Shown here piece after piece: positions 29,707 to 59,186 of a stretch of 64,000 nt of DNA (positions are counted from its first letter, which is position 1; each line of letters starts with the position of its first letter). Under the pieces are notes generated by a model. The model was not told the origin of the DNA. It worked only from the letters and a program-made list of their open reading frames with translations, and made no database searches. The position numbers and the translations under genes were made by a program. Where the stretch lies: positions 1 through 64,000 of the forward strand of contig NZ_VOBR01000005.1 of assembly GCF_007845675.1 (NCBI RefSeq). Direction: 5' to 3'. Origin of the DNA: Lentzea tibetensis. Lineage in GTDB: Bacteria; Actinomycetota; Actinomycetes; Mycobacteriales; Pseudonocardiaceae.

Positions 29707-30513
29707 TCAGAACGCGGCAGCGAGAGCCGCACGCCTGTTCGCGGGTGCGGGCAGCGAGATCGACACCGGCGAGCAACGGCGAAGCTGCGTCAGCAGGTCC
29801 GACAGCTCACCGACCGCTGCCGCGCAACTGGCACACGACTCGATGTGGTGCTGGACGCGCACCCGCAGACCGCGGCCCAGCCGACCGCACAGCCACGCGG
29901 CGAGGTTGCTCGCGGGCAGCCTGCACTCCTCGTTCACCGCGGCCTTGACGTGCATCTGCACGTAGGCGACCCGAAGCCCCTCTCGCGCGCGGAACGCGAG
30001 CGCCGCCAACGCGTTCGGCTGCAGGCCGAGCAGGTCGGCGACAGCGGACGTCGAGCGGTTCTCGATCTCGAGGTGGACCAGCACGGTCCGCCACCGCTCC
30101 GGCAGGCTCTCCAGCGCCTGGACGGCGAGGTCGGCGTCGAGCTTCTCGATCAGCAGGTCGCGGTCGATCGTGGGCAAGACCTGCTCCGGCAGTTCGGCAT
30201 GTCGGTCGACCAGGCGCTCACCGGCCAGCTGCTTGTAGAACGTCGTGCGGACGGTGGTGAGCAGGTAGGCGCGGAACTGCGCCGTCGGGCCTCCGCCGGA
30301 CACGATCCGCCGCAGCACCTTGGTGAAGGCTTCGGCGACGAGGTCATCCGCACCCTGCGAGGTGCCCAGCAGCCGGCACGCGAAGCTGTGCGCGGCCGAC
30401 TCGTACCTGCCGTACAGCTCACCGAACGCCTCCCGGTCACCCCGGCGCACGGCGTTGAGCAGGTAGGCATCCGGATCACAGCCAACCCTGTTGTCGTCGA
30501 GGTCCTGAGCCAT
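29707..30513 (-). CDS. ECF-type sigma factor with C-terminal His/Cys segment (module A)
   Basis: 268 residues. Region 2 is visible at AFGELYGRYESAAHSF and GADDLVAEAFTKVLRR. Region 4 includes LPERWRTVLVHLEIENRS and VADLLGLQPNALAALAFRAR. After the usual sigma ends (about 190) comes a segment with HHIESCASCAAAVGEL, the H-x3-C-x2-C arrangement of zinc-binding anti-sigma domains. This suggests a built-in regulatory part. It is a paralogue of the sigma factor at 55.1 kb; both share the leader GTAGGTGA before ATG. It is the last gene of module A. Confidence 0.9.
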   Translation of the reverse strand: MAQDLDDNRVGCDPDAYLLNAVRRGDREAFGELYGRYESAAHSFACRLLGTSQGADDLVAEAFTKVLRRIVSGGGPTAQFRAYLLTTVRTTFYKQLAGERLVDRHAELPEQVLPTIDRDLLIEKLDADLAVQALESLPERWRTVLVHLEIENRSTSAVADLLGLQPNALAALAFRAREGLRVAYVQMHVKAAVNEECRLPASNLAAWLCGRLGRGLRVRVQHHIESCASCAAAVGELSDLLTQLRRCSPVSISLPAPANRRAALAAAF

Positions 30514-30737
30514 CTCACCTACGCCCTTTGTCCGGTGGTCGGTAGGCCAAAGCTACAACCAGGCTCAACGAAAAGCAGCGCACGAGCCTCCATTCCGACA
30601 TCTTTTCCGCCCGTCCGGCTCGACTGCGGTAACTCAGCCACTCGATGCCATCCCAATAATTGCCGAGACAGTCATCCGATGTGATGATGACCGCGCACGA
30701 AGAAGTGCAATGTGATTGCTCAGCGACAGAATTCAAG

Positions 30738-31142
30738 TCACCTGCCACCGCGAGCGAACATCGACGACGCGGGCCGGAGCAGCTTCGGTGCCGCCGAGTG
30801 CTCGGGATGGGGCAGCGCGCGCAACTCCCCGATCGCGTCGATCATCGTGCCCGTGTACTCCCAGAGGACCTGTGGCACCGCGACGCGCCGTGCGGCGAGG
30901 TAGTCGTCAGTGCGCAGCCGGGCGACGGTCACGTCGTCGACGGCACGCACGGTGATCGTCTCGCTCACGACGAGCCCCACCCGCACGCCGTAGAGGCACT
31001 CGACCCCGTGGATGCTGGCCTGGAAGAACGTCCACCCACCACCTCCCGACCGCGCCAGCGACGCGAGCTCGGCCAGGTGCGGATGGCGGCGAAGAGCTTC
31101 CCGGAACTGCGGACTGGACACCAGAACCCACCTCTCGGTCAT
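30738..31142 (-). CDS. Hypothetical protein downstream of the PTPS-like gene
   Basis: 134 residues, soluble, no signal peptide. It is rich in Arg, Val and Leu and predicted mixed alpha/beta from its alternation pattern. I recognise no family. ATG 31142 overlaps the stop of the PTPS-like gene by four bases, so the two are translationally coupled and probably act together. It has no counterpart in module B. Confidence 0.7.
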   Translation of the reverse strand: MTERWVLVSSPQFREALRRHPHLAELASLARSGGGGWTFFQASIHGVECLYGVRVGLVVSETITVRAVDDVTVARLRTDDYLAARRVAVPQVLWEYTGTMIDAIGELRALPHPEHSAAPKLLRPASSMFARGGR

Positions 31143-31531
31143 CGAACGCCGTCTCGGCCCCGTATCGCGAGGCACCGCGCGCGCGACGCGCGGCCTGCCG
31201 AGACCGCCACGCTGTGCAGCGTCTCGGTGACGTAGCCGCCCAGGTGGGAGCGGCACCACCTGACCAGGTGCCCGGCAAGTCGCGCCGGGGTCGGATCTCC
31301 CACCAGCACGTCGTTGAGGTGCCGGGCCTCCAGCTCCGTCGTCACGTACCGGCGCAGGGGTTCCAGCGCCGCGGTCTCGGCCGGGCCGTCCGTCGGCAGC
31401 AGTGAGGCCGCGAACAACACGACCTCCACGGACCACTGGTGCATGTGCACGCCGTGGCACGGATGTGTCGACTGGAGCCCGAGGATCTCGTGCGTGGCGA
31501 CGAAGGTGTAGTGCTCGCTGATCTCATACAT
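31139..31531 (-). CDS. 6-pyruvoyltetrahydropterin synthase/QueD-like protein
   Basis: 130 residues, normal for the family. The zinc ligands match QueD: His in FVATHE, and the pair in HGVHMHQW. The catalytic Cys sits four residues before the first of these two His (CHGVH), as in QueD (CGRLH). RHLNDV matches the HYLND motif and DPTPARLAGHLV matches the NPTSE helix. The C-terminal Glu that holds the pterin is not evident (VSAG in place of KET), so substrate or activity may differ. No other queuosine or biopterin gene is near. It is coupled to the 134-residue protein. Confidence 0.72.
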   Translation of the reverse strand: MYEISEHYTFVATHEILGLQSTHPCHGVHMHQWSVEVVLFAASLLPTDGPAETAALEPLRRYVTTELEARHLNDVLVGDPTPARLAGHLVRWCRSHLGGYVTETLHSVAVSAGRASRARCLAIRGRDGVR

Positions 31532-31544
31532 GATGGCGCCGGCG

Positions 31545-31808
31545 TCACGACCGGCGCGCCGGCTCCGAGATGCCGGGCTCGGCGGAGGCGGCTCGCACGG
31601 CCGCGGCCTTGAGCGCCGCACGCAGGCGGCCCACCTGCAGCGGCGCCAGGTAGACGGGACCGAACGCGGTTCCCTCCAGTGCGACACATCCGCGACCTAG
31701 GCTGACGATCACCGTCGAGTCACCCCTCCGCTCATCCCCTCCGACGCCGCGGGGCGAGGCGGCCCTCCGGCCGCGTCCCAGCCGGTCCAGGATCGACAAC
31801 AGCGGCAT
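31545..31808 (-). CDS. Small conserved protein, paralogue of the one in module B
   Basis: 87 residues. The central part, GRGCVALEGTAFGPVYLAPL followed by Q-x3-RLRAAL, aligns with the protein at 56.0 kb: G-x-V-x-LEG-x2-F-x2-V-x-L-x3-Q-x2-RLR-x-AL-x-AA. The N-terminus is basic and the C-terminus differs. No known family comes to mind. In both modules this gene lies between the ECF sigma gene and the LuxR-type gene, so it may be a partner or modulator of one of them. Confidence 0.7.
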   Translation of the reverse strand: MPLLSILDRLGRGRRAASPRGVGGDERRGDSTVIVSLGRGCVALEGTAFGPVYLAPLQVGRLRAALKAAAVRAASAEPGISEPARRS

Positions 31809-31876
31809 TCTCCGATCACGGCGACTCACCAAACCAGCTCCTCGTCGATCTGACTGCCGGACACACGAGATCGAGA

Positions 31877-32035: not shown

Positions 32036-32734
32036 TCACCCGGAGGGGGTCGATTCGTTGGAGAGCAAGGACATCGTGAACGCCTTCGCGACTGCGTGCG
32101 CCCGGTCTCTCGCCTCCAGCTTGCGCAGGACGTGGTTCACGTGCGTCCGGACGGTCTCGGCGGTGACGCCCAGCATGCTCGCGATCTGCACAGCTGTGCG
32201 CCCTTCGGCGACCAGCTGCAGCACCTCCAGTTCGCGCCGGGTCAGCGGCCTGCTCTTGGTGATCGCGACCGGCCTGAGCGGGCCGACGGAGGCGTGCAGG
32301 TGGGGGTCGACGAAGTGGCCGAGGTCGACGCCGAGTCTGATCGCCGCGATCAGGCGATCGGCGTCGGCCTCGATGGGCACCAGCGAGTGCACCCCGTGAC
32401 ATCGCGCCCGTGCCATCGCCTCCTGGTTCCGTGCCTCGTCCCCGAGCAGTGCGACCACGGTCAGCTCCTTGAACAGGCGGGTCAGCAGCTCGCACAGCTT
32501 CCAGCCGGGATCGCTGCGCGAGCTGATCAGCACGACGTCCGGGCCGGTCCGTTCGCACAGCTCGATGGCGGCGCGCGCTCCGCCGACCGCGTCGACCCAC
32601 ACCAGTGCCGGGTCCGCGGTGACGACGGTCTGCACGCCACGCCGCAGCAACGGCACCAGGTCGACGAGCGCGACCGCGATCCTGCGCTCAGGGACGTGTG
32701 CGCGAGCCTCGGCGATCGGCGACGCGGCGGTCAC
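32036..32734 (-). CDS. LuxR-type regulator with degenerate receiver (module A)
   Basis: 232 residues. The N-terminal receiver-like domain (about 18-140) keeps the fold pattern, but the phospho-acceptor position reads PDVVLISSRSDPGW, with Ser instead of Asp, and the acidic pair is reduced to one Asp (ALVDLVPLL). The C-terminal LuxR HTH is intact: LTRRELEVLQLVAEGRTAVQ and VTAETVRTHVNHVLRKLEA. Regulation is therefore probably not by standard phosphorylation. GTG 32734 overlaps the upstream gene's stop (GTGA). It is paralogous to 56401-57060 and to the lone receiver at 33420. Confidence 0.88.
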   Translation of the reverse strand: MTAASPIAEARAHVPERRIAVALVDLVPLLRRGVQTVVTADPALVWVDAVGGARAAIELCERTGPDVVLISSRSDPGWKLCELLTRLFKELTVVALLGDEARNQEAMARARCHGVHSLVPIEADADRLIAAIRLGVDLGHFVDPHLHASVGPLRPVAITKSRPLTRRELEVLQLVAEGRTAVQIASMLGVTAETVRTHVNHVLRKLEARDRAHAVAKAFTMSLLSNESTPSG

Positions 32735-33234
32735 CCGCACGTCATCGGCCGATCGGAGCGGCGATGCCCGCTTCCGCCTGGATGCTTGTCGGGCAGTACG
32801 CCCACCGACATGCTCGCCGCAGGCGGTGTCGTGCGCGGCGGCTTCGTCTGCGGCTGTCCGGCGCACGACATGGGCGGGGCCACCGGGTCCGCGTCCCGTG
32901 CGACCGGCGGAATCACGGGGCCGGTGGACTTCACCGGCCCCACCGGCCCCGGCGGCGGTGTGGCGGCCCCCGGTGCGGGCGGCTCGGCCGTCGGCCCGTC
33001 GTTCACCACGGTCACCGTGACCACGCGTTCGGGCACGTCCGCACTGGCGTTCCCGGCCACCGTCGCCCCGGCGCCGGGGGTTCGGTAGACGGAGTCGAAC
33101 GACGCGCCGACGAGAACCGCGAGCGGCACGAGCAGCGCGGCAACGAGACTCCTCTTCGCACAGTCGTCGCATTTGGACTGATTCTCCTTCGGCGACACCA
33201 GCCGATGTCTGCCCGCTGCTCTGCGGCGCCACAT
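32731..33234 (-). CDS. Membrane-anchored Pro-rich protein
   Basis: 167 residues. A short basic N-terminus with a Cys pair (CDDC) precedes one membrane segment (about 33-48, LVAALLVPLAVLVGASF). The rest, about 120 residues, is rich in Pro, Thr, Val and Gly and is probably extracytoplasmic and extended. Its stop overlaps the LuxR-type gene's start, so it may be its membrane partner or sensor. GGGAG precedes ATG 33234. I recognise no family. Confidence 0.65.
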   Translation of the reverse strand: MWRRRAAGRHRLVSPKENQSKCDDCAKRSLVAALLVPLAVLVGASFDSVYRTPGAGATVAGNASADVPERVVTVTVVNDGPTAEPPAPGAATPPPGPVGPVKSTGPVIPPVARDADPVAPPMSCAGQPQTKPPRTTPPAASMSVGVLPDKHPGGSGHRRSDRPMTCG

Positions 33235-33419: not shown

Positions 33420-33839
33420 GTGATCAGCCGTGTGCCGACGCGCGTTCTGCGCGTCGCCCTCATCAGCTCCCAGCCGTCGCTGGAGCGAGGAGTAGCCCCG
33501 ATCGTCCGGGAAAGTCCCCAGCTGACGTGGACGGGCTCGGCGCCGGACTCGGACGGCGCGATCCACCTCTGCCGGGCCGACGGCCCGGACGTGCTGCTGG
33601 TCGACTCGGCGACCGACCCGCGGTGGGACATGTCGCTGTTGCTGACCTCCATGTTCCCGAACCTGGTGATCGTCGCGCTGCTGCGCAGGCAGTCCCGCAA
33701 CTCGGTGACCGCCGCCTGGGCGCGGCTGCACGGCGTGCAGGGCCTCGTCGGCCTCAACGCCGACGCCTCCTGCCTGCTCGCCGCGATCCAGTCGGCTGTC
33801 GAGATCGGCCACTACGTGCAGCCGGGGATCACCACCTAG
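33420..33839 (+). CDS. Stand-alone atypical receiver, paralogue of the LuxR-type regulators' N-terminal half
   Basis: 139 residues. It aligns along its length with residues about 18-150 of the LuxR-type regulators A and B (RVALISSQPSLERGV, DPRWDMSLLLTSMFPNLVIVALL, GHYVQPGI) but ends before any HTH. Unlike those two, it has Asp at the acceptor position (VLLVDSATDP). AGGAGGACACGA precedes GTG 33420, a strong site. It is divergent from the module A regulator operon. A role as competitor or partner of the LuxR-type proteins is inference. Confidence 0.75.
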   Translation: MISRVPTRVLRVALISSQPSLERGVAPIVRESPQLTWTGSAPDSDGAIHLCRADGPDVLLVDSATDPRWDMSLLLTSMFPNLVIVALLRRQSRNSVTAAWARLHGVQGLVGLNADASCLLAAIQSAVEIGHYVQPGITT

Positions 33840-33937: not shown

Positions 33938-36900
33938 TCACCGCGATCGGCGGCGGGTGGCCAGCACGAGCGCGACCCCGGCGATGAGCAGCACGGCGCC
34001 CATACCGGCCAGCCACTCGATGTCCAACCCGGTCGCCGCGAGGCTGTCGTCGGGCACCGGGGCGCAGGCGTCGGTGGTGAGGCTGGTTCCGTTGACGATC
34101 ACCGTGGCGGTGTTGCGCAGTCCGCCGCCCTGTTCCCCCGCGGCCGGTGCGCAGCCCGCCCGCGCACTCGCGCCAGGCTCGGCGTGCACCGTGACGACGT
34201 AGGTGTGCCCGGCGCCCGCGGCCAGACGCACGCCGTTCGCGACCCGCAGGTCCGTCCTGCCGTTCCAGCCGGGGTTCGTCGGAGCCACGTCGGGGCTCAT
34301 CATCACGGTCGCGCCGGTCACTTCGGTCCCCGCACCGAGCCGCAGTTGGTCGTCGAGGTCGTACGTCGTGTCGGCAGCGCCCTTGTTCACCACCGTGATC
34401 CGGTAGTCGACGACGACGTCGCCGCCGGGCTCGACCCGAGGCGAACCCGGCAGCACGACCTTGGTGAGCGTGACGCCGGGGAAGGGAGCGCACGCGTTGG
34501 CCGAGGTCGAGACGCCGTTCACGACCATCGCCGCGGTGTTCAGCGCACCGGTGCCCTCCTCGTCCTGCCCGAGCGCGCAGTCGAACGCCTCGGCACGGGC
34601 GCTCGCGGGTGGGGTGGCGACGACCTCGACGGTGTAGGTGTGCTCCTCGCCCGCCGCCAACGGGATGTCCTCGCCCACAACGGGAACGAGCCGACCGTCC
34701 CAACCGGACACTCCTTCGGCGGTGGCCGACTCGATGGTCGTGCCCGTGCCGAACCGCAGGCTGTCGTGCAGGCTGTACGAGGTCCCCGCCGCGCCGTCGT
34801 TGGTGACGGTGATCCGATAGGTGATCGCGTACCGGCCGTCTCCGCGCGGCGTGGCACGCACGACGTCCTTGGTCAGGGCGACCGCGGGAAGCCCGTCGCA
34901 CGCGGCGGCTTCCTCGGTGACACCGTTGCTGTTCATCGTGACGAGGTTGCGCAGACCGGTGCCGCTCTCGCCGGGGTCGACGACGCAGTCCGTCGCCTTC
35001 CCGGTGGCCAGCGACCGCACGGTCGTGGTGACTCGGTAGACGTGCGAACCGCCACCGGCGATCGTCACGTCGGTGACGAACCGTCCGTCGTCCGTGCCGC
35101 GCCACCCGCTGTCGGGTGCCGGGCCGTCGCCGACGGCGCTCGCCGCCACCTCGTCGGTCCGGATCCCCGAGCCGAACCGCAGGTGGTCGGTCAAGCTGTA
35201 GACGGCCGCACCGGCGCCGGTGTTCGTCACCGTGATCTCGTACATCGCGGTGTGCGTGCCGTCGCCGTTGGGTGTGACCGGAGCCGCCATCTCTTGCGTG
35301 ACCGACAGGAGTGCCGCCTCGGCGCAGGCCTCCGCGGTGCGGGCTGAGCCGTTGCTGGTCGCGACGGCGCGGCCGAGGAACCCCGTGCCGGTCTCGCCCT
35401 TGTCGAGCATGCAGTCGGTCGCCGCGGTCGCGGCAGTGGTGGGATCGACCACGTAGACGACGGTCAGCTGATAGGTGTGAGTGACGTCCGCCGCGATGCC
35501 GACCCCGCTCACGATCTCCTGCCCGGCCGTGCCGTTCCAAGCCTGGTTCGTGGCGACCGGTCCGGCCGCCACCGCCGACACGACACTGATCCCCTTGCCC
35601 GGCAACAGTTCGTCGGTCAGGTCGTACGCGGTCGCCTGGGCACCTGAGTTCCGCACGTCGATCTCGTAGACAACGGTGTGCGTGCCGTCGCCGTTCGGCT
35701 TCGGCGAGCCCGGCAGCACCACCTTCGAGATCGAGAGATGCGGGAACGCGACGCACGCGGTCGCGGCACGGGACACCCCGTTGCTCAGCACGATGGCCCT
35801 GTTGCGGGCTCCCGTTCCGCTCTCACCCGAGTCCAACGCGCAGTCCAGAGCTCCCGCGGCGGGATCGTCCGGTGGGCTCGCGGTCACGGTGACCACGTAG
35901 ACGTGGCTGCTGTTGGCCTCGATGGAGACGTCCGACGCGACGAAGGGATCGGTCGAGCCGTCCCACCCGGCGCCGGTTCCCGCCGCGGGTGGGAGCGTCG
36001 CGCTCGCTGCGACGATCTGCACGTCCGCGCCGTACTCGAGCGAGTCGGCGAGGTCGTAGCGGCCTTCGCCCGCGCCATCGTTCGTCACGGTGACCTCGTA
36101 GGTGGTCGTGTACGTGGAGTCGCCGTTCGGAACGAAGCCGGTCACCTTCTTGCCAACGGAGATCACCGGCAGAGCGGTGCACGCCTCGACGGCGAGGGAG
36201 CGTCCGTTCTGCGTCGCGGTCGCGATGTTGCGCAGACCAGTGCCCGTCTCGCCGGGATCCGCGATGCAGTCAGCCCTGGTGCCGGTGACGCTCGGATCCG
36301 GTTCGACCACCACGGTGACGCGGTAGACGTGCGAGGTGCTGCCGGAGACCGGGATCGCCTTCACCACCACGACGTCCGACGCACCGTCCCAGGACGAGCT
36401 GGTGGGCAGCGTCCCCGGTGACGTGTTCACGACGCCGGTGGTCCGGACGTCGATGCCTGCGCCGAACCTCAGCTGGTCGGTCAGGTCGTACGTGGTCGCG
36501 CCCGCGCCGCGGTTGGCCACGGTCACGTCGTAGATCTGGGTGAAGGTGCCCTCGCCACCGGGTGCCGGGCCGCCGACCGCCTGCTTGGTGACCGCGAGGT
36601 TCGGCGCCTCGACGCACGCATCGGCGTGCTGGCTGTGGCCGTCGCCGGTCACCGTGGCGGTGCCGAGGAAACCCGTTCCGCTCTCGCCGTCCGCCACCAC
36701 GCAGTCCGTCGCCCCGCCGGCGGCCGCGGGATCCACCGAGGTGACCGCGGTCGCGACATAGGTGTGCGTGTCCCCCGGTTCGATGTCCACACCGGACGCC
36801 ACGGAGGTGGAGCCCCGTCCGTCCCAGCCGGGACTCACCGGCACCGTCCCCGGCGCGATGTTCGCCACCGACACCACGCCCGCCGACAGGCCGGAACCGA

Positions 36901-39772: not shown

Positions 39773-40267
39773 ATGGCGCGCGTGATGACGAATCCACAGG
39801 AGCTGGCGGGTACGTTCGTGGTGGCTGTCGGCGAACGGCAACGCACTCCCTTCCTGGTCTTCTACAGCGACGAGCGCGACTACGAGCTGCAGCTCGACCT
39901 GAACACGCACTGGCGCTTGCGGTTCGGTGACACGGAGATGTGTGCGTTTCTCGACGAGGACCATCGCTGGCGGCTGGGGCAGTCCGGCGCAGGCAGGAGG
40001 ATTTCCGCGCACCATCTCGAAGTCCTGTCCCGGCTGAGCGGAATGACAGTCCACCAAGCGCGAAGAGACAGCGACCGCGCGTTGCGAATCATTTTCGCCG
40101 ACCGCATCACGGAAACGACACACCTCACCGTCTCCGGTGAACAGACCCGGTTCACCGTCGACGCGCCGTGGCATCTGCGGCGTTGCCTCGACACCTCGCT
40201 CGAGATCGCGTGGCGGCTCGCCGCGTTCGACACCGGTGCCCCGACCGGACGGCACGCGGCCAGATGA
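39773..40267 (+). CDS. Hypothetical protein coupled to the flippase gene
   Basis: 164 residues, soluble, no signal peptide. It is rich in Arg, His, Asp and Glu and has beta-strand-like N-terminal sequence (TFVVAVGERQRTPFLVFYS). ATG 39785 is an alternative start. It overlaps the flippase start by four bases (ATGA), suggesting a role in the same polysaccharide pathway, perhaps regulatory. No recognised domain. Confidence 0.65.
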   Translation: MARVMTNPQELAGTFVVAVGERQRTPFLVFYSDERDYELQLDLNTHWRLRFGDTEMCAFLDEDHRWRLGQSGAGRRISAHHLEVLSRLSGMTVHQARRDSDRALRIIFADRITETTHLTVSGEQTRFTVDAPWHLRRCLDTSLEIAWRLAAFDTGAPTGRHAAR

Positions 40268-49782: not shown

Positions 49783-50735
49783 ACCGAGGACCTCGCAGCC
49801 TCGTTCTCGGTGCGCACAAGCCGTTCCACCCACTCGATCGTCCTGCTCAGCGCCATTTCCAGCGAGACGGGCCGGGCCTGCGGGAACAGCCTGCGCAACG
49901 AGGTCCCGGATGCCTGTGAGTGCCGCACATCACCCGCGCGCTGCGGGCGGCGCGCGACCTCGAGCTTGCGGCCGAGCAGTGCGGACAACAGTGCGACGAC
50001 GTCGTTGAGGCTGGTGCGCGTGCCGAAGGCCAGGTTGACCGGACGGGTGCAGCTGACGGAGCGCAGCACGCTGTCGGCCAGCACGCCCACGACCGAGTCG
50101 ACGAACGTGAAGTCCCTGGTCTGCTCACCGTCTCCGAACACGGTGAGAGGCTGTCCACGCAGTGCCGACCAGATGAACGTGGGGATGACGGCGGCATAAG
50201 GGTGGTCGGGCAGCTGCAGCGGCCCGAACACGTTGAAGAAGCGGAACACCGTGCACGGCAGGTCGAAGCAGTGCTGGAAGGACAAGGCATAGGACTCCGC
50301 CGCGAGCTTGCCCGACGCGTACGGGCTCACCGGCACGCACGCCATCTCCTCCGACTTCGGCAGTGCGGGGTTGCGCCCGTACACGGAACTGGACGAGGCG
50401 AGCACGACGTGCGCCCCCGCGGCGCAGGCGGCCTCGAGCACCTCCAGCGACCCGGTCACGTTGACGTCGTGGCTGTGCCGCGGGTTCATCAGCGACCGCG
50501 TCACGGACGGGACGGCCGCGAGGTGCACCACGGTGTCGGCGCCCGCGCAGGCGTACACCACCGCGTCCCGGTCGAGCACGGACTGCACGCGCAGCTCCAC
50601 GTCGAGGCCGTCGAGATTCGCGCGCCGTCCGGTGCTGAGGTCGTCGAGCACGAGCACCTCGGCGCCGCGGCGCGCCAGCTCACGGCACAGGTTGGCGCCG
50701 ATGAAACCGGCTCCGCCGGTGACGACCACCTTCAC
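49779..50735 (-). CDS. NAD-dependent nucleotide-sugar 4-epimerase (GalE/WbpP-like)
   Basis: 318 residues, extended SDR. The NAD loop is VTGGAGFIGANL. The SDR triad includes Ser in ASSSSVYG and YxxxK as YASGK. FRFFNVFGPLQ and FGDGEQTRDFTFVDS are typical of epimerases acting on UDP-hexoses. Its position between the dehydratase and dehydrogenase suggests a UDP-GlcNAc/GalNAc interconversion, but specificity cannot be read. GTG 50735 overlaps the preceding stop. Confidence 0.92.
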   Translation of the reverse strand: MKVVVTGGAGFIGANLCRELARRGAEVLVLDDLSTGRRANLDGLDVELRVQSVLDRDAVVYACAGADTVVHLAAVPSVTRSLMNPRHSHDVNVTGSLEVLEAACAAGAHVVLASSSSVYGRNPALPKSEEMACVPVSPYASGKLAAESYALSFQHCFDLPCTVFRFFNVFGPLQLPDHPYAAVIPTFIWSALRGQPLTVFGDGEQTRDFTFVDSVVGVLADSVLRSVSCTRPVNLAFGTRTSLNDVVALLSALLGRKLEVARRPQRAGDVRHSQASGTSLRRLFPQARPVSLEMALSRTIEWVERLVRTENEAARSSV

Positions 50736-52573
50736 GACGTCACGCTCGCATCGTCCTGGCACGCACGGGCGAACGGAACCGTCAGCCTCGCTGCACACTC
50801 GGCCATTGCGGCGACCTCGTTGTCTCCCAGGGCGAGCGACAACAGATGAGCCGGGTCGAGCGGAGGCACCGGGACCTGCGAGATGGCCGGGTGCAGCGGA
50901 CGGTGGTCGAACTCACCCTGGCCGAAGAGCTCCTCGTGCAACTTCTCCCCGTCCTGAAGTCCGGTGTAGACGATCGGAACGGACCTGCCGGACACCTTCA
51001 TCAGCTGGCGGGCGACGTCGGCGATGCGCAGCTGCTCGCCCGTGTCCAGCAGCAGGACCTCACCGGAGCGGCCGATCGCCGCGGCCTTGATCACGAGCTG
51101 CACGGCCTCGTCGGTCATCATGAAGTACCGGCTGACGTCGGGATGCGTCACGGTGATCGGACGCCCCTGTGCCAACTGTTCGGTGAAGGTGCTGAGCACC
51201 GAGCCACGGCTGCCGAGCACGTTGCCGAACCGCACGGACAGGTACTTGCCGTCGGAGCGCGTCGCCGCGTTGGCGGTGAGCCGCTCGCCGACGCGCTTGG
51301 AACGGCCGAGGACGCTCGTCGGGTTCGCCGCCTTGTCCGTGGAGATGTTGACGAAGGTGCGCACGCCCGCGGACAACGCCGCCTCCAGGACGTAGTACGT
51401 GCCGAGCACGTTCGTCTTCCACGCCTCCAGCGGATGCTTCTCCAGCACGGACAGGTGCTTCAGGGCCGCCGCGTGGAACACCACGTCCGGCAGGCACCGG
51501 GCGAACGCGGCCCGCACGGCCTCCGAGTCGCGGATGTCGGCCAGCACGATCTCCGGGGAATCGAGCATCGCCTCACCGTGGATCGACAGCCGCAACGCGT
51601 GCAGCGCCGACTCGTCGTGGTCGAGCAGGAACAGTTCGGCCGGTCCGAGGCGGTGGATCTGCCTGCACAGCTCCGACCCGATCGACCCACCCGCGCCGGT
51701 GACCAGCACCCGCTTGCCCGTGAGGTGTTCGCCGGTGACACCGACGCACGTGTCGATCCGCCGCCTGCCGATCAGCTCCGCGACGTCGAGCTCGCGCAGG
51801 TCGGCCACGCTGACGCGGAGCCCGAGCAGTTCGTCCAGACCCGGAAGCACCTGCACACCGAGACCTGCTTCGTGCGCGGTCCGAGACAGTTCGCCCAGCG
51901 CCTCGGCATCCGGTGCGCGCAGCGCGACGACCAGCAACGTCGCCCCCGTCCGCGCGGCCACCTCCGCTATGTCCCCGCCGGTGCCGCCGACCGGCACGCC
52001 GCGGATCCGCAACCATCGCTTCGCCGGGTCGTCGTCCAGGAGCGCGACCGGCAAGTAGCCGCGCGAGGGATCGCTGAGCATGGAGCGGACGAGCTGCTCA
52101 CCGGTGTCGCCGGCACCGACGACGATCACGCGCGTCGCTCGCTCACGTTCCGGGTACGGCCAGCGCTCCCGGCTCCACCGGATCACGCCGCGCACCGCCA
52201 GGGAGAGGAACAGCGAGGCGAACGCCGCCGTCAGCGGGACGGAGCGGGGGACGAGCGGATCCGGCACGGCCAGGTTGACGGCCGCGGCCAGCACTCCGGT
52301 GACCAGTGCCACCCACGCCAGCCGCACGGCTTCCTCGAGGCTGCCCACCGGGTAGCGCCCCTGGTAGAGATGCGCTGCCACACCGATCACCGGCGCGACG
52401 GCCAGCACGATCAGCGTGAACCAGAGCAGTCGCGGACCGTCGACGTGCGTCTTCTCCAGCACGTACCGGAACGAGGTCACCATCCCCAATGCGACGGTCC
52501 ACGCCGACGCGTCGATTCCCACTAGTAGAAGCCGATGTCCCCAACCTCTGGAGGGCACGGATTCCCACCTCAT
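50732..52573 (-). CDS. Membrane UDP-GlcNAc 4,6-dehydratase, PglF/WbpM/CapD long type
   Basis: 613 residues. Four N-terminal membrane segments (about 15-145) lead to a CoA-binding-like Rossmann domain (VIVVGAGDTGEQLV) and then the catalytic SDR domain: VLVTGAGGSIGSELCRQI, NISTDKAANPTSVLG and KxxGERL. In this family the SDR Tyr is normally Met; here the position before the GxSK reads Leu (VLGRSK). It catalyses the first step to 4-keto-6-deoxy sugars. First gene of the nine-gene operon. ATG 52573. Confidence 0.92.
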   Translation of the reverse strand: MRWESVPSRGWGHRLLLVGIDASAWTVALGMVTSFRYVLEKTHVDGPRLLWFTLIVLAVAPVIGVAAHLYQGRYPVGSLEEAVRLAWVALVTGVLAAAVNLAVPDPLVPRSVPLTAAFASLFLSLAVRGVIRWSRERWPYPERERATRVIVVGAGDTGEQLVRSMLSDPSRGYLPVALLDDDPAKRWLRIRGVPVGGTGGDIAEVAARTGATLLVVALRAPDAEALGELSRTAHEAGLGVQVLPGLDELLGLRVSVADLRELDVAELIGRRRIDTCVGVTGEHLTGKRVLVTGAGGSIGSELCRQIHRLGPAELFLLDHDESALHALRLSIHGEAMLDSPEIVLADIRDSEAVRAAFARCLPDVVFHAAALKHLSVLEKHPLEAWKTNVLGTYYVLEAALSAGVRTFVNISTDKAANPTSVLGRSKRVGERLTANAATRSDGKYLSVRFGNVLGSRGSVLSTFTEQLAQGRPITVTHPDVSRYFMMTDEAVQLVIKAAAIGRSGEVLLLDTGEQLRIADVARQLMKVSGRSVPIVYTGLQDGEKLHEELFGQGEFDHRPLHPAISQVPVPPLDPAHLLSLALGDNEVAAMAECAARLTVPFARACQDDASVTS

Positions 52574-52731
52574 TCCACAGTCCGCCTATGCGCGCAGTCA
52601 CCCCGCCCAGATCTCTCTTTCCGCGGTCGCTTACTGGCGAGCACTCGAAAGAGTTGCCGAGTTGCACATTCACGAACACCCACGAGAATTCACCGGCGAT
52701 CCGCACTCGAATTGATTGAAGGCGAACCCCT

Positions 52732-54108
52732 GTGTCTCTGCGCGGACATCTCCAGGTCCTCCGGGAACGCTGGCGGCTGGTGGTGGCCGGGCTCCTGCTC
52801 GGTGTCGCCGCCGCAGCGGCGGCCAGCTGGGCCGTCAGCCCCGTCTACGCGGCCGAGGTGACGCTGTTCGTCTCGGCGGGTGACGGGAACGGCGACGCGA
52901 CCCAGGCCTACCAGGGCAGCCTGCTCTCGCAGCAGAAGGTCAAGTCCTACACGCGGCTCGTCACGAGCGGCCGCATCCGCCAGGACCTCGAACACCGCGG
53001 GCTGGCTCCCGGCCGGGACGCGGTCAGCGCCGAGGTCCAGCCCGGCACGGTGCTGCTCACGCTGACCGCCACCGACGCCTCACCGCAACAGGCTCAACGG
53101 CTCGCCGACGCGGTGGCCGAGTCGTTCAGCAGGCTCGTCGCCGAGTTGGAGCGGCCCGTCGACGGAGGCAGGCCCACCGTCGTGGTGAAGGTCGTCGAGC
53201 CGGCCGGGCTGCCCACCACGCCGGTGTCGCCCCGCCCGGTGGGCACCTTCGCGCTGGGACTCGCGCTGGGACTCGTCACCGGGGCCGGAGCCGCGTTGGT
53301 GCGCAACGCTCTCGACACGTCCGTGCGGTCGGACGACGCGCTCCGGACGCTGGTCGCCGCCCCGTTCCTGGGCTCCGTCCCGGTCGACCCCGGTGTGCGG
53401 CGGCACCCGGTCGAGTTCCCGGTGTCAGCGAGAGCGGAGGCGCTCCGGCGAATCCGCACCAACCTGCGGTTCGTCGATGTGGATCGTCCGGCGCGCACGG
53501 TCGTGGTCACCAGCTCCGTTCCCGGCGAGGGCAAGTCGACGGTCGTGTGCGACCTGGCGATCACGCTGGCGGAAGCCGGGCGGACCGTCGTCGTCGTGGA
53601 CGCCGACTTCCACCGGCCCAGCATCGGCGAGTACACCGGCCTGCCGTCCTCGGTTGGCCTGACCAGCGTGCTGATCGGGCGAGTCGGGCTGGATCAGGTC
53701 CTGCGGCCGTGGGGCCGGGCGGGCGTCGCGGTGCTCACCAGCGGGCCGATTCCGCCGAACCCGAGCGAGCTGGTCGCCTCGCGGCACATCGCCGACGTGC
53801 TCGACCTGCTGGCGGCCCGCTTCGACGTCGTGCTCGTCGACACCCCGCCGCTGCTGCCGATCACCGACGGGGCCGTCCTCGCGAGCCGCTGTGACGGCGC
53901 GGTGCTCCTGGTGCGCCACGGCTCGACGACCGGGAAGCAGGCGAGCAGCTCGGCCGGTGCGCTGGAGGCGGTGTCGGCGCGGCTGCTCGGCACCGTGCTG
54001 ACGATGACGCCGAGATCCCGGATCGACGACGCGTACCGCTACCTCCGCCCGCCCCACCTGAACGCGGCTTCCCTCCCGCAGCACGGCAGCTCAGGGACTC
54101 ACGTGTGA
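52732..54108 (+). CDS. Wzz-type chain-length determinant fused to a BY-kinase-like ATPase
   Basis: 458 residues. Two membrane segments (about 17-35 and 168-190) flank an extracytoplasmic Wzz domain. The C-terminal ATPase has Walker A SSVPGEGKSTVVCDLA, A' VVVVDADFHRPS and Walker B FDVVLVDTPPLLPITDG, all needed for BY-kinase activity. The C-terminus lacks the usual Tyr cluster but has one Tyr pair region (DDAYRYL). It controls polymer length and is divergent from the main operon across 158 bases, which must hold both promoters. GTG 52732 follows a weak site. Confidence 0.92.
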   Translation: MSLRGHLQVLRERWRLVVAGLLLGVAAAAAASWAVSPVYAAEVTLFVSAGDGNGDATQAYQGSLLSQQKVKSYTRLVTSGRIRQDLEHRGLAPGRDAVSAEVQPGTVLLTLTATDASPQQAQRLADAVAESFSRLVAELERPVDGGRPTVVVKVVEPAGLPTTPVSPRPVGTFALGLALGLVTGAGAALVRNALDTSVRSDDALRTLVAAPFLGSVPVDPGVRRHPVEFPVSARAEALRRIRTNLRFVDVDRPARTVVVTSSVPGEGKSTVVCDLAITLAEAGRTVVVVDADFHRPSIGEYTGLPSSVGLTSVLIGRVGLDQVLRPWGRAGVAVLTSGPIPPNPSELVASRHIADVLDLLAARFDVVLVDTPPLLPITDGAVLASRCDGAVLLVRHGSTTGKQASSSAGALEAVSARLLGTVLTMTPRSRIDDAYRYLRPPHLNAASLPQHGSSGTHV

Positions 54109-54860
54109 AGAACGCTGCAGCTGCCCCGCACGACAGCCGGATGACCGTCAGCGGCGTACCCGACCCGGCCGACCACCCGCACCCGGTGCCCACCGAGTCG
54201 CGAGCTCAGCTTCACCTCGACGTCCATCGGCTCGCCCCGCCTGAGCAGGGCCTGCCAGGCGCCGTCGTCGGCGACCGCGGCCTCGAGACCGGACTGCGCG
54301 TCCGACCCTGGCCCGAAGATGCGTCGCAAGCCTCGCGACCCGATCAGCCTGCCGGTCATCAGGTCCAGCGAGAACACCCCGACCCCGGCGTCCGCGAGTG
54401 CGTCGACCGCGTTGGCGAGCTCGAGGTGATCCGCCGTCGACTCCCCGTCGGACGTGATCGGCGGCCGCTCGCCGGCCCCGGCAGGAGTCAGCCAACCCGG
54501 CAGCCACGTGCACAGGACCAGGTCGCCGACCAGTGCGACCCGGAGGGACACCGAGGGTGCGCGGGCGAGGTCGGTGAGCGGATCGGGCGCAGCGGCGACA
54601 TGACCGACACCTGCACCGGACTGCCTCGTCTCGTCGCACAGCTTGCGCAGCAGCGCAGCGGTGTCCTCAGGAAGGAACTGCGCGAGCCTCTGGCCGACCA
54701 CCTGGTCGCTCCCGAGAACATCAGCGGCGGACTTGTTCACCATTTCCGCGCGATAGTCGACGACAACCGAGGGTTGCAACTCATTCACGACCGGCGCCAA
54801 CACCAGCGCGGCTTCCTGCATGAGATCGACGACGTGCTGCAATCGCAACCCCTTTGTCAC
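54099..54860 (-). CDS. PAS-like protein of unknown output
   Basis: About 253 residues from GTG 54860. Two PAS-like segments: about 25-110 (VDYRAEMVNKSAADVLGSDQ-type) and about 160-250 (GVFSLDLMTGRLIGSRGLRR-type). No kinase, cyclase, HTH or other output domain is visible. The middle has Pro/Gly linkers. It may sense a small molecule or redox state and act through protein contact. The start is uncertain because no good ATG exists. Its 3' end overlaps the Wzz-kinase gene by ten bases. Confidence 0.6.
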   Translation of the reverse strand: MTKGLRLQHVVDLMQEAALVLAPVVNELQPSVVVDYRAEMVNKSAADVLGSDQVVGQRLAQFLPEDTAALLRKLCDETRQSGAGVGHVAAAPDPLTDLARAPSVSLRVALVGDLVLCTWLPGWLTPAGAGERPPITSDGESTADHLELANAVDALADAGVGVFSLDLMTGRLIGSRGLRRIFGPGSDAQSGLEAAVADDGAWQALLRRGEPMDVEVKLSSRLGGHRVRVVGRVGYAADGHPAVVRGSCSVLHT

Positions 54861-54964
54861 TGCCGATCCCGCCCCCTCGTTCTCGACCAACGGCCGCGCG
54901 AACCACGCAGAGACTACGGGGGCCGCGAAGGTTGAGACAGGTATGTGAAGGATTTGCACCAAAA

Positions 54965-54986: not shown

Positions 54987-54999
54987 GCCGCACCATCGC

Positions 55000-55124: not shown

Positions 55125-55874
55125 TCACGCCGCCAGCGGCATGTTCAGCGGCACCGACCTCGCGAGTTGCCCCAGCAGTTCGGTGACCTCGGTCGCCGCC
55201 GCGGCGCACGGCTCGCACACGCGCAGGTGATCGCGGACGCGTTGCCTCCTGGCCTGTGCCAGCCTCCCGCACAGCAGCGCCGCGAGGTTGTCGACCGACT
55301 CCCGGCACGCCTCCTCGGCCGCGGCCTTCACGTGCATCTGCACGTAGGCGACGCGGAGCGCGTCACGGGCGCGGAACGCGAGTGCGGCGACCGCGTTGGG
55401 GCGCAGGCCGAGCAGGTCCGCGACCGCCGACGTGGTGAGCCGCTCCAGTTCCAGCAGAACCAGCACGGTGCGCCAGCGCTCGGGAAGACTCGCGAGCGCC
55501 TTCATCGCCAACTGGGCCTCGAGCTGGTCCACCGGGTCGCGGTCGTCCGCGGGCAGCATGGCCTCGGTGATGTCGGCGTGCCGGTCGATCATGCGGTCGC
55601 GGTCGAGCTGCTTGTAGAAGGTCGTGCGCACGGTGGTCAGCAAGTAGGCGCGGAACATCGAGGTTGGCCCGCCGCCCGCGATGATCCGGGTGAACACCTT
55701 GACGAATGCCTCGGCGACGAGGTCGTCGGCACCTTGTGCCGTTCCCAACAATTTGCATGCGAGCCCGCGCGCGGCCGCGAAGTTTCTGCGGTAGAGCTCG
55801 CTGAACGCCTCTTGGTTCCCTGATCGCATCGCCTCCACCAGGCGGGCCTCGAGATCGTGGACCTGGCCAGTCAT
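55125..55874 (-). CDS. ECF-type sigma factor with C-terminal His/Cys segment (module B)
   Basis: 249 residues. Region 2 (AFSELYRRNFAAARGLACKL, GADDLVAEAFVKVFTR) and region 4 (LPERWRTVLVLLELERLT, VADLLGLRPNAVAALAFRAR) align closely with the module A sigma. The C-terminal extension again carries H-x4-C-x2-C (HLRVCEPC), a probable built-in zinc-binding control segment. The leader GAGGTAGGTGA before ATG 55874 matches that of sigma A. No separate anti-sigma gene is adjacent. It probably drives the same class of surface genes as sigma A; whether the two cross-talk cannot be read. Confidence 0.9.
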   Translation of the reverse strand: MTGQVHDLEARLVEAMRSGNQEAFSELYRRNFAAARGLACKLLGTAQGADDLVAEAFVKVFTRIIAGGGPTSMFRAYLLTTVRTTFYKQLDRDRMIDRHADITEAMLPADDRDPVDQLEAQLAMKALASLPERWRTVLVLLELERLTTSAVADLLGLRPNAVAALAFRARDALRVAYVQMHVKAAAEEACRESVDNLAALLCGRLAQARRQRVRDHLRVCEPCAAAATEVTELLGQLARSVPLNMPLAA

Positions 55875-56018
55875 TTCACCTACCTCAGGGTTGTTATGGA
55901 TCCCTTTCATCCCTTCGCCCCGACTTCAGCGAACAACCTACCGCGAGCTGATCTTGCTTGGAAGGCGACATACGCACGGTGTCGAGAAATACTCGATCGG
56001 GAATCCAAATATGTCGCC

Positions 56019-56363
56019 TCATCCCAGGTAATACGTGTCGGCGTCACCCTCCCGAGTGATCGACTTCGACCGTTGTTCTGGTATCTCGACCGCCCGGACA
56101 GGCGCCAGGTCGTTCTCGTCGAGCCGGTCGAGATCGAACACGGCCGCCCTGAGCGCCTCGCGCAGCCTGTCCGCCTGGGTGACCGAAAGGTGCACCGCCG
56201 TGAAGTCGGAACCCTCGAGCCGGACGCCACCCTCGACCGGCCGGACCACGGCGGTGGCCCGCCTCCCGCTTTCGTCCTGGTACCGCACCGGCAAACACCG
56301 GTCACGACACGGGCGTATACGGGCGACAACCGACAGGAACGCTTTTCTCCACTGGGTGCTCAT
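56019..56363 (-). CDS. Small conserved protein, paralogue of the one in module A
   Basis: 114 residues. Residues about 44-75 (GGVRLEGSDFTAVHLSV, then Q-x2-RLREAL) match the module A small protein. The N-terminus is longer and basic, and the C-terminus is acidic then Arg/Lys-rich. No recognised domain. It lies between the ECF sigma and LuxR-type genes, as in A. Confidence 0.7.
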   Translation of the reverse strand: MSTQWRKAFLSVVARIRPCRDRCLPVRYQDESGRRATAVVRPVEGGVRLEGSDFTAVHLSVTQADRLREALRAAVFDLDRLDENDLAPVRAVEIPEQRSKSITREGDADTYYLG

Positions 56364-56400
56364 TCGCCAACTTCCTCCGGTAGGAACACCTCGGGCGTGT

Positions 56401-57060
56401 TCAGCAGGGCAACAACGACAGCTCGAACCCCCTGGCCACCGCATGCGCGCGGTCCCTGGCGCCGAGCTTGCGCAGGATGTGACTGACGTGCGTGCGCGCC
56501 GTCTCGGCGGTGATCTGCAGCCTGAGCGCGATCTGCACCGCGGTCCGGCCCTCGGAGACCAGATGCAGCACCTCGAGCTCGCGGCGCGACAACGACTTCT
56601 TGCCCGCGGACCGGCCGCCATCCGGTGCGGTGGCGTGGATCGCCAGGTCGGGGTCGATGTAGTACCCGAGGACGACGCCCGCGGTGATGGCCGTGACCAG
56701 GCGGTCCGGATGGGCCTCCAGCGGCACCAGCGCTCGGACGCCGCGCAGGCGGGCCATGGCGATGCTGTCCGAGTTCCGCGCCTCCCTGCCCAGCAGTGCC
56801 ACCACGGTGAGCCGGGTGAAGAGACGGGTCAGCAACTGACAACGGTTCCAGCCAGGATCACCACCCGACGTGACGAGCAGTACGTCGGGATGCACCGACT
56901 CGCACAGTTCGACCGCCGCGCGGGTGCTGCTCACCGCGTCGACCCACTCCATGCCGGACTGGCCGGAGATGACCGTCTGCACCCCACGCTTCATCAGCGG
57001 CAATGATTCGACGAGCGCGATCCGCAGCGGTTTCTCGGTCTCATTCGGGCCTGCACTCAT
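56401..57060 (-). CDS. LuxR-type regulator with degenerate receiver (module B)
   Basis: 219 residues. The receiver-like half aligns with that of module A; the acceptor position reads PDVLLVTSGGDPGW, Thr instead of Asp, and the N-terminal acidic residues are replaced by VESLPL. The HTH is intact: LSRRELEVLHLVSEGRTAVQ and ITAETARTHVSHILRKLGA. ATG 57060. A palindrome and a conserved 17-base motif lie 130-160 bases upstream. Control by ligand or protein contact rather than phosphorylation is likely. Confidence 0.9.
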   Translation of the reverse strand: MSAGPNETEKPLRIALVESLPLMKRGVQTVISGQSGMEWVDAVSSTRAAVELCESVHPDVLLVTSGGDPGWNRCQLLTRLFTRLTVVALLGREARNSDSIAMARLRGVRALVPLEAHPDRLVTAITAGVVLGYYIDPDLAIHATAPDGGRSAGKKSLSRRELEVLHLVSEGRTAVQIALRLQITAETARTHVSHILRKLGARDRAHAVARGFELSLLPC

Positions 57061-57191: not shown

Positions 57192-57205
57192 CACTCAATT
57201 GAGTG
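57192..57205. promoter_or_regulatory. Perfect 14-base palindrome upstream of LuxR-type gene B
   Basis: CACTCAATTGAGTG is a perfect palindrome, 132 bases upstream of the LuxR-type gene's start. Its AT-rich centre stands out in this GC-rich DNA. It overlaps the start of the shared 17-base motif. A regulator dimer, perhaps the LuxR-type protein itself, could bind here. Confidence 0.5.
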
Positions 57206-57220
57206 GTTCACCCGGAGAAC
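57202..57220. promoter_or_regulatory. Shared motif AGTGGTTCAxCCGGAGA, copy 1
   Basis: Sixteen of 17 bases match copy 2 at 59310-59330. It lies about 142 bases upstream of the LuxR-type gene B. A weaker, gapped version (GTTCACCGGAG) is at 33318-33338 in the module A intergenic region. Candidate operator or promoter element linking the regulator to the surface genes. Confidence 0.45.
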
Positions 57221-57252
57221 AGCCACCGACTGTGGCGAGCGTCGCCGACGGG

Positions 57253-58596
57253 TCATGGCAGGACGACCGCGTGAGTGACCCTGACCGGGAGATAGGCCCA
57301 GTCATCGACTACTCGGGCGTCACCCCACCCGCCGCTGACATGGTCATCGGCGTCCGCGCCCGCAACACTTCCGCACCCGCCGATCCCCCAGCCGTGCACT
57401 CCTCCGGCGCTGTCGTGACCTGCCCGGCCGTCGAGCACCGGAGTGCCGCTGCACCTTCTCGGTCCGCGACGGTCGAACGGCGTGTCGTCCCAGTGCAGCG
57501 TCCGCTCGCCGCCCTCGGCGCCGTTGAGCCGGGTCACCTCGATGCCGCCTGCCCGCACCTCGACGTCGGCGCTGACGAAGTGGATCTCGGCGATCCGTTC
57601 GACCAGCACTTCGAACACCACGGGCGCGCTCTGGGGCAGCGGTGCACCGTCCCCACCGAGGCCGTCGAAGAAGACCTCGACGGTCCCCTCCCGCGTGGTG
57701 ATCGGAATCGACCTGTCGACACCGTCACCGCCGGCTTCGACCCGCACGACGAGATGCCCGCTGTAGTCGGCGAGCTCGAACGCGAGCGTGCCGCTGCGGC
57801 CACCCGCCGGCGTGAACCTGCCGCCGCTGATCACGGGGTGCGGGCGCAAGCCGGGTCGCACCCAGTCGAGCACCCCGTCCCAGCGAACAGCCTCGGCGGG
57901 CAGATCGGCGGCGGGCGGCTCGAAGAACACCTTGTACGCACCTCCGCACCAGCCGTCGGCGGCAGGTAGCCGATCGCTGCTCGCGTGGACCGGCGTGCAG
58001 GTGAAGTCCCGCACCACGCCGAGGTTGTCGGCCGCGACAGCCCAGTCGACACCGTGGTGCTCCCGGAAGGTCGCCCGGTAGGTGTAGCCGTACTCGCCCT
58101 GGTACCAGAACGTCAGGTCTACGGGCGGCTCGCCGGTGTCTCGACTGATCTCGTATCGCTCGGTCCACACCCTGCCGGGCAGCAGCTCCGTCCCCCGGCG
58201 CACGGCCACGGCCCAGCGGAACCCATCCCGCCCAGCACACGTGCCGACCACCGGACACCCGGCGCCGGGAATGTCCACGTCAACCACCCAGATCCCCGAC
58301 GCGGAACTGGTCAGCCCTGCCCACCCGCACCCGCTTCGCACCGGCGCGACGTCGTCGACCCGGCACCGCGCCGCCACCCCGCCCGGTCCGCGCACTCCGA
58401 CGACGAGGTCGTGCCGCGGCGTCCCCGCGGCGTCAGCAACCTTGGTGAACGAGGCGTCGAGCCGCTCCCCCTTCCCCACGTACGCGTACCAGGCTTGCCG
58501 TGCCCGGACGTGCGTCCCAGCCGGGTTCGCGGAGGCGGTGCCCTCACCCCCCAGACAGCCCGCCAAGAGGCAGAGCACAGCGCAGACCCGCCGCAT
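57253..58596 (-). CDS. Lipoprotein sharing the N-terminal domain of the giant surface protein
   Basis: 447 residues. The signal ends in LLAGC, a lipobox, so it should be lipid-anchored. The rest aligns along nearly its whole length with residues about 40-455 of the 1899-residue protein: VWTERYEIS, FWYQGEYGYTYRA, CGGAYKVFFEPP, ADYSGHLVVRV, ERTLHWDDT and GGVHGWGIGGCGS. Several Cys positions are conserved, suggesting disulfides. The family is not one I recognise. It is coupled to a small membrane protein 2 bases upstream. Confidence 0.82.
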   Translation of the reverse strand: MRRVCAVLCLLAGCLGGEGTASANPAGTHVRARQAWYAYVGKGERLDASFTKVADAAGTPRHDLVVGVRGPGGVAARCRVDDVAPVRSGCGWAGLTSSASGIWVVDVDIPGAGCPVVGTCAGRDGFRWAVAVRRGTELLPGRVWTERYEISRDTGEPPVDLTFWYQGEYGYTYRATFREHHGVDWAVAADNLGVVRDFTCTPVHASSDRLPAADGWCGGAYKVFFEPPAADLPAEAVRWDGVLDWVRPGLRPHPVISGGRFTPAGGRSGTLAFELADYSGHLVVRVEAGGDGVDRSIPITTREGTVEVFFDGLGGDGAPLPQSAPVVFEVLVERIAEIHFVSADVEVRAGGIEVTRLNGAEGGERTLHWDDTPFDRRGPRRCSGTPVLDGRAGHDSAGGVHGWGIGGCGSVAGADADDHVSGGWGDARVVDDWAYLPVRVTHAVVLP

Positions 58597-58598
58597 GC

Positions 58599-59186
58599 TC
58601 ACGGTGTCCCGCCACGCTTCCGGCGCAGCCAGGCGACAGCCACCACCAGCACCACGAGCGGCAGCGTGACGAGCAACTGGCCCAGCATCAGCACGATCAT
58701 CAGCCAGCTGACACCCGTGTCCGCGTTCTCGACACCGTTGACGTCCGACGAGCAGACCGTCGCCAGCCCCGCACCCGCCGCGCACGCCGTGACCACCATC
58801 TCGGTCTGGCCGGCCGGCACGTCCCGCACCACTCCGCCGACCTCGAAACCAGCCTTCCCACCCGCACTGATGCCGCCGCTCCAGCGCGTCTGCGCCGGTG
58901 CCCCGTCACCCAGCACCAGTACGTCGGGCGTCATCACCGTGAGCTCGAGCCCATCGAGGTCCCGCCCGGTCAGGTTGCTGACCGCGACCTGGTAGGCGAC
59001 CACGCTGTTCTCGTCGACCGTGCGCGTCCCGTCAGCCACGCTGACCGCCAGATCGTCACGCACGGGACCGTCGTGCGCCTGGCCGCGCACCGCGGCCAGC
59101 GTGATCGTCAAGGCGGCGGCGAACGCCACCGCCGGCGCCACCCACCGATAGCGAGCCCACGTGCCCGGCAGGGGCGGATCGGTCAT
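58599..59186 (-). CDS. Membrane protein with one DUF11-like extracytoplasmic domain
   Basis: 195 residues. A membrane segment near 15-33 and another near 160-187 enclose about 120 residues resembling one DUF11-type repeat (VVAYQVAVSNLTGRDLDGL; VVRDVPAGQTEMVVT). It ends in WLRRKRG. The arrangement mirrors the module A surface protein split into two genes: N-domain lipoprotein plus DUF11-like piece. An in-frame ATG at 59201 is an alternative start. The conserved motif at 59310 lies upstream. Confidence 0.75.
   Translation of the reverse strand: MTDPPLPGTWARYRWVAPAVAFAAALTITLAAVRGQAHDGPVRDDLAVSVADGTRTVDENSVVAYQVAVSNLTGRDLDGLELTVMTPDVLVLGDGAPAQTRWSGGISAGGKAGFEVGGVVRDVPAGQTEMVVTACAAGAGLATVCSSDVNGVENADTGVSWLMIVLMLGQLLVTLPLVVLVVAVAWLRRKRGGTP

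Follow-up and report, generated by a model that had tools for sequence, protein, structure and literature searches.

A duplicated sigma factor and LuxR regulator set flanks a polysaccharide and surface-protein locus in Lentzea

A 64,000-nucleotide stretch of the Lentzea tibetensis genome (hereafter the window, to which all positions refer) carries two paralogous gene modules, A and B, at either end of a Wzx/Wzy-type polysaccharide locus. Each module encodes an extracytoplasmic function (ECF) sigma factor (sigA, sigB), a small protein (smallA, smallB), a degenerate LuxR-type regulator (luxA, luxB) and a surface protein with a common N-terminal domain, the N-domain (surfA, surfB). The doubling of the regulator set around matrix genes is confirmed here, and recurs in six other Lentzea genomes, which together with the window's own genome we call carriers. 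The arrangement is new and is built from known kinds of parts. We see about an even chance that it represents a Lentzea envelope-matrix island, in which an anciently duplicated sigma/LuxR unit flanks the polysaccharide genes together with the gene of a giant, fibrillar-adhesin-like protein with a wall anchor, and controls these matrix genes in the manner of BldM and WhiI.

Paralogy of the regulatory modules

The original prediction described two minus-strand cassettes with the same gene order (surface protein, LuxR, small protein, sigma) and polysaccharide genes between them, and all four gene pairs are indeed homologous between the modules and lie in that order. BLASTP aligns sigA with sigB at 63% identity (153/244, E 7e-102), luxA with luxB at 59% (125/211, E 3e-83) and the N-domains of surfA and surfB at 52% (238/458, E 2e-142). 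The small proteins form the weakest pair (46% over 39 amino acids, E 3e-7); their alignment reaches 33.9 bits, whereas the best of 200 shuffles reaches 24.3, and profile-to-profile comparison gives E 1.4e-14, so that the paralogy holds for all four pairs.

Both sigmas end in the His/Cys segment that had been proposed: the spacing C-x25-H-x3-C-x2-C, counted on the two window copies, is matched in 14/14 sigmas from the seven carriers, with a Pfam zf-HC2 match for sigA (0.004) below the cut-off. Neither sigA nor sigB contains a strongly hydrophobic segment (Kyte-Doolittle, KD, maxima of 1.24 and 1.35, versus 1.77-2.58 in seven long Lentzea relatives). In 7/7 of these long relatives, one of them from the non-carrier Lentzea G019, the zinc finger is followed by a hydrophobic segment and a tail, in most cases Pro-rich, and sigA and sigB end just after the finger, before the point at which that segment starts. 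Judged by sequence, sigA and sigB are relatives of ECF52-like sigmas that are tethered to the membrane. At E <= 1e-50, sigma homologues occur in 78 of the 120 genomes searched, a set that includes the window's own genome and 25 Lentzea in all.

In the sigma tree the A copies of all seven carriers form one clade (support 90/97) and the B copies of all seven another (97/93), the two being joined at 97/92 with the sigma of a non-carrier Lentzea, G019, as the next branch, a row flagged by the tree program as long-branched. Because the A and B copies form separate clades with G019 outside, the sigmas were duplicated before the seven carriers diverged. The LuxR tree, less resolved than that of the sigmas, recovers an A clade (85/98) and a clade of a third, receiver-only protein (99/98), and does not show the B copies as one clade. 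Ratios of nonsynonymous to synonymous substitution rates (dN/dS), calculated for one genome pair, are 0.08-0.22 for sigma and LuxR genes, 0.28-0.30 for the small and receiver-only proteins and 0.19 for a PAS-like protein.

The genes of the region are as follows.

29707..30513, minus strand: sigA, ECF-type sigma with C-terminal zinc-finger (ZAS-like) segment (Pfam Sigma70_r2 4.5e-9, r4_2 3.7e-6)
30738..31142, minus strand: small protein, module A only (no Pfam family above cut-off; 54-67% in 6/6 other carriers)
31139..31531, minus strand: PTPS/QueD-like protein, module A only (Pfam PTPS 9.8e-9; 74-82% in 6/6 other carriers)
31545..31811, minus strand, start approximate: smallA (BLASTP and profile comparison)
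32036..32734, minus strand, start approximate: luxA, NarL/LuxR type with degenerate receiver (GerE 2.9e-16; alignment to NarL 1a04)
32731..33234, minus strand, start approximate: Pro-rich protein with one hydrophobic segment (37-49% in 6/6 other carriers; KD peak 2.06)
33420..33839, plus strand: halfrec, the receiver-only protein (44% to luxA, E 1e-36; 71-79% in 6/6 other carriers)
33938..39637, minus strand: surfA, N-domain, DUF11/DUF7927 and further stalk repeats, LAATG-transmembrane-RRRSR end (Pfam DUF7927, DUF11)
39773..40267, plus strand, start approximate: conserved protein of about 165 amino acids, no Pfam family (70-76% in 6/6 other carriers)
40264..54108, flippase and wzz on plus strand, others on minus strand: Wzx/Wzy-type polysaccharide locus (Pfam; remaining genes named by eye)
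54099..54893, minus strand, start approximate (open reading frame extends to 55124): PAS-like protein (PAS_9 0.011, under cut-off)
55125..55910, minus strand: sigB, paralogue of sigA (Pfam, BLASTP, zinc-finger motif)
56019..56363, minus strand: smallB (BLASTP and profile comparison)
56401..57060, minus strand: luxB, degenerate NarL/LuxR type (GerE 6.7e-15; BLASTP; NarL alignment)
57253..58596, minus strand: surfB, N-domain lipoprotein-like protein, no stalk or wall anchor (52% to surfA, E 2e-142; LLAGC by eye)
58599..59201, minus strand: membB, membrane protein with presumed outer domain, no Pfam match (39-49% in 6/6 other carriers; KD 2.74)

Module A, first delimited as 29707-39637, contains, beyond the genes originally listed, the receiver-only protein, the Pro-rich membrane protein, the PTPS-like protein and a further small protein. 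The receiver-only gene, overlooked at first, is divergent from the Pro-rich and luxA genes. Module B extends over 54099-59201 and adds the PAS-like and membrane proteins. The PTPS/QueD-like gene sits inside module A in 7/7 carriers. Adjoining sigA, a repetitive Ala/Gly-rich protein without a Pfam family is encoded at 28270-29508, and similar open reading frames lie near sigA in some other carriers.

Alignment to NarL 1a04 bears out the proposed degeneracy of the LuxR receivers, with acid pocket, phospho-Asp and Lys all altered: LuxB has E-S in place of the paired DD of the NarL pocket and LuxA has D-L or D-S, while T or S replaces the phosphorylated Asp and L or I the conserved Lys. The receiver-only protein retains the Asp at the phosphorylation site and lacks the acid pocket. 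PDB matches in the LuxR/NarL comparison include 3kln, which we take to be VpsT of Vibrio cholerae. VpsT is a LuxR-type regulator of matrix genes that has an unusual receiver and binds cyclic di-GMP (c-di-GMP).

Both modules also have the small protein, said to carry a LEG-x2-F core. That string, as LEG- or VEG-x2-F, is present in 7/7 A copies, but it is lost from smallB in 5/7 carriers and reads LDG-x2-F in a sixth. The small proteins match instead a wider family with the core W-x-V-x-C-R-D ... LRAALRDAV, found at E <= 0.01 in 58/120 genomes.

Surface proteins and polysaccharide genes

The surfA product combines the N-domain with a DUF11/DUF7927 stalk, in which a repeat signature recurs eight times at spacings of 136-146 amino acids, and a wall anchor; stalk repeats and anchor are features of fibrillar adhesin-like proteins. 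Its end, LAATG...RRRSR with a membrane helix, fits the substrate pattern of class E sortases, the NCBIfam LAXTG/LAVTG-type models scoring below their cut-offs. An LAxTG motif is present in the A surface protein of 6/7 carriers, with LAAGG in G016. No Pfam or NCBIfam family matched the N-domain, and in fold comparison its C-terminal part alone matched, to a common sandwich that does not indicate function. A search of the plasmid collection with the surfB N-domain gave no match.

The doubled surface protein stands less firmly than the doubled regulators. Wall anchoring in A and lipoprotein anchoring in B had been proposed, and the LAATG end and the lipobox-like LLAGC, the latter read by eye, agree with this in the window; intact surfB is found only there, with fragments in G013 and no second match in five other carriers. 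The term "duplicated surface-display system" is therefore only half right, because the part kept twice is the regulatory half; the A protein of G018, moreover, has no N-domain. The G013 fragments (L081, G013:C110, about 11456-11911) form a broken surfB remnant adjoining luxB, which suggests that a second surface gene was once present there. Near membB, G013 (L081) and G018 (L079) encode more large repeat proteins, of 1877 and 718 amino acids, with sortase-like ends.

Pfam matches place a flippase, DegT aminotransferase, CapD-type enzyme, Wzz and double glycosyltransferase between the modules, in keeping with the predicted polysaccharide locus; the initiating transferase and Wzy-like gene were assigned by eye only. 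In loci L073, L074, L077, L079 and L081 of other carriers, up to three additional plus-strand genes not seen in the window lie between wzz and the PAS gene, one of them resembling a low-molecular-weight tyrosine phosphatase (by eye). On the other side of module A, positions 19693-26507 encode in series a signal peptidase, a camelysin/TasA-like protein (Peptidase_M73) and a 1778-amino-acid DUF2341/Laminin_G protein, a second surface-fibre-like cluster; a relative of the giant adjoins the G024 locus.

Distribution among genomes and a related unit

Two close copies each of the LuxR, sigma and small genes were identified in exactly 7/120 genomes, all of them Lentzea. A wide gap separates the close copies from the next matches: for LuxR the close copies lie at E <= 3.1e-97 and the next match at 1.4e-55, for sigma the values are <= 6.2e-117 and 3.7e-79, and for the small genes <= 4e-15 and 8.5e-8. 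The other 18 Lentzea gave no LuxR match at E <= 1e-40 and no small-protein match better than about 5e-4. Of the predicted co-occurrence of four families, the strict association of these close copies thus stands, but the wider families and the N-domain occur independently.

One order is common to all seven carriers, surfB apart: sigA, small gene, PTPS-like, smallA, luxA, Pro-rich, receiver-only (opposite strand), surfA, 165-amino-acid gene, sugar genes, PAS, sigB, smallB, luxB, membB. The G013 island is split between two contigs, one end on each, with the middle sugar genes outside the stretches read. Wzz is found at 68% or more in 6/7 carriers and in 0/18 other Lentzea at that level (G022 at 44%). 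The 7/25 Lentzea that have the island also carry, as the only ones, an OmpR-type regulator gene in its flank, which in the window lies about 10 kb beyond module A. The full polysaccharide set is kept in the window, G020, G007, G016 and G018, and G013 keeps what its two contigs show; between the G024 modules, only the double and single glycosyltransferase, epimerase and CapD-type genes of the sugar set are present.

The rpoB and gyrB trees (midpoint-rooted; G012, with no rpoB match, omitted from the rpoB and joined trees) disagree with each other, and both pair carriers with non-carriers (G016 with G004, G020 with G023). Because of this conflict, with carriers beside non-carriers, loss and transfer of the island are indistinguishable. 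Trees of sigB, luxA and luxB pair G020 with G007, and exchange of the island is a possible reading of this disagreement with the rpoB and gyrB trees.

Four genes in series in the non-carrier G019 make up a related unit. The first encodes a tethered sigma (49.6% to sigA), whose finger is followed by a hydrophobic segment; the second encodes a degenerate LuxR (34%, E 5e-23), the third a histidine kinase (HATPase_c 6e-9, HisKA_3 4.9e-4) and the fourth a PAS-like protein (35%, E 3e-30). Profile search detected the PAS family in 8/120 genomes, the seven carriers and G019; the profile was built with G019 and four carrier rows, so that those five matched by construction, which does not apply to its absence from the 112 others.

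Control of the matrix genes and comparison with known systems

The motif TGTAG[CT]TT is present upstream of sigA in 7/7 carriers and of sigB in 5/7, the window's own sigB lacking it, and was absent from the 320 bases upstream of 12 other genes examined. Its longer form, TGTAGYTTTG, occurs once in the window at <=1 mismatch where chance predicts 0.6; its weight comes from cross-genome conservation. A search of the G019 locus did not find it. The shared motif fits autoregulation and may simply have been inherited with the duplication. TGATCA was rejected as a common motif of divergent promoters, since many conserved sites lie at start codons and others are misplaced between genomes and genes; exact GTGATCAC, with one window occurrence, is rarer than chance predicts, which also counts against it. 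A scan of 29500-40500 for sigma-70 promoters and terminators returned nothing exceeding shuffles.

For the envelope-matrix island, we envisage that the zinc-finger segment of each module would hold its sigma in check until a signal, arising inside the cell or relayed through the membrane, releases it, and that the released sigma would activate both its own promoter and the LuxR gene of its module. Pairing among LuxA, LuxB and the receiver-only protein could then set the timing of matrix-gene expression, as BldM and WhiI do in Streptomyces. Control of the matrix genes, zinc-finger restraint, dimer partners and signals are all inferred.

Several observations weigh against this interpretation. 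No motif common to the sigma upstream regions and surfA or the polysaccharide genes was found, and the case that the modules control the matrix genes is for this reason drawn from neighbourhood. An in-frame loss has removed the N-domain from G018 surfA, which retains its signal peptide, stalk and LAATG end. None of the seven non-Lentzea loci with an N-domain has a close relative of the LuxR, sigma, small or PAS genes; three of these loci end at a contig edge near the gene, and in one (G338) an ECF sigma with 33-35% identity is encoded about 1.4 kb away. The flippase, acetyltransferase, initiating transferase, aminotransferase, Wzy-like gene, dehydrogenase and Wzz were not found in G024 (tblastn 1e-5, in-frame queries), the G019 unit gave no match to the small protein, and the outer proteins diverge faster than the regulators (dN/dS 0.47-0.55, one genome pair).

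An alternative that we consider unlikely is that an ancestral ECF52 protein was split, with its membrane sensor half now encoded by a gene of its own, that of the Pro-rich protein in A and membB in B, and with the sensor binding the soluble sigma to pass on an outside signal. The long relatives' hydrophobic segment and tail, just short of which sigA and sigB stop, and the presence of the Pro-rich protein and membB in 7/7 carriers agree with such a split, but neither has a significant sequence link to the long sigmas (best BLAST E 0.008 for the Pro-rich protein, in low-complexity sequence, and 0.11 for membB). It is likewise improbable that the regulators act on different genes and are only passengers of the island, as might be argued from the missing common motif, from the modules retained in G024 though most polysaccharide genes are gone, and from the identical 7/25 distribution of the flanking OmpR-type gene; modules stand at both locus ends in 7/7 carriers, over about 0.3-0.5 changes per column between two sigma-tree sub-groups. 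That the sugar genes mainly glycosylate the surface protein, under module control, instead of making free polysaccharide is very improbable given the full sets listed above, despite G024, which retains surfA, two glycosyltransferase genes, epimerase and CapD-type enzyme with flippase, Wzz and Wzy-like genes unmatched.

We rate as distinctly unlikely a more specific form of the island reading. In it, the severing of a tethered ECF52-type sigma would have left a soluble sigma-zinc-finger protein and a membrane sensor encoded apart from it, the unit would have been doubled, with one copy at each locus end, and three degenerate receivers, of which two bind DNA and one is receiver-only, would form homo- and heterodimers that determine when adhesin and polysaccharide are expressed. 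Such a two-branch matrix switch would be previously undescribed. If the modules do control the locus, they provide a compact, naturally occurring example of how sigma/LuxR paralogues diverge, with two regulator copies, one target region, seven genomes and the single-copy tethered G019 relative for contrast, and make ECF52-type sigma function without the membrane part testable. If they do not, what remains is an old and well-conserved duplication flanking a surface locus.

The literature searched contained no description of the Lentzea island, which is not proof of none in print. Precedents include PMC5148588 and the papers cited below. ECF52 sigmas (SCO4117), in which the zinc-finger segment is proposed to restrain the sigma (PMC5826349, PMC8999054), share with sigA and sigB the succession of sigma regions 2 and 4 and zinc finger in Actinobacteria, and the hydrophobic segment and Pro-rich tail of the long Lentzea relatives resemble those described (PMC5826349). 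In contrast, sigA and sigB lack hydrophobic segment, Pro-rich tail and carbohydrate-binding module and sit in a duplicated unit with a LuxR. Fibrillar adhesins (PMC8286594) resemble surfA in having an N-terminal domain, a repeat stalk and a sortase-type end; the surfA N-domain differs in having no Pfam/NCBIfam family or known ligand, and DUF11 is absent from the text of PMC8286594. In Actinoplanes, four Wzx/Wzy-type clusters were studied and two were needed for sporangium formation (PMC13390465), a likeness in kind of cluster and in actinomycete host; the text of that paper mentions neither "LuxR" nor "surface protein", and "sigma factor" once, in the reference list. A regulatory parallel lies in Streptomyces, where the sigma-BldN/BldM and sigma-WhiG/WhiI branches each join a sigma to an atypical orphan LuxR-type regulator, BldM and WhiI acting as homodimer and heterodimer (PMC4125116). 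LuxA and LuxB share the degenerate phosphorylation pocket, whereas in Lentzea the two branches are paralogous and occupy a single locus, a receiver-only protein comes in as a third component, and dimerisation is predicted by analogy.

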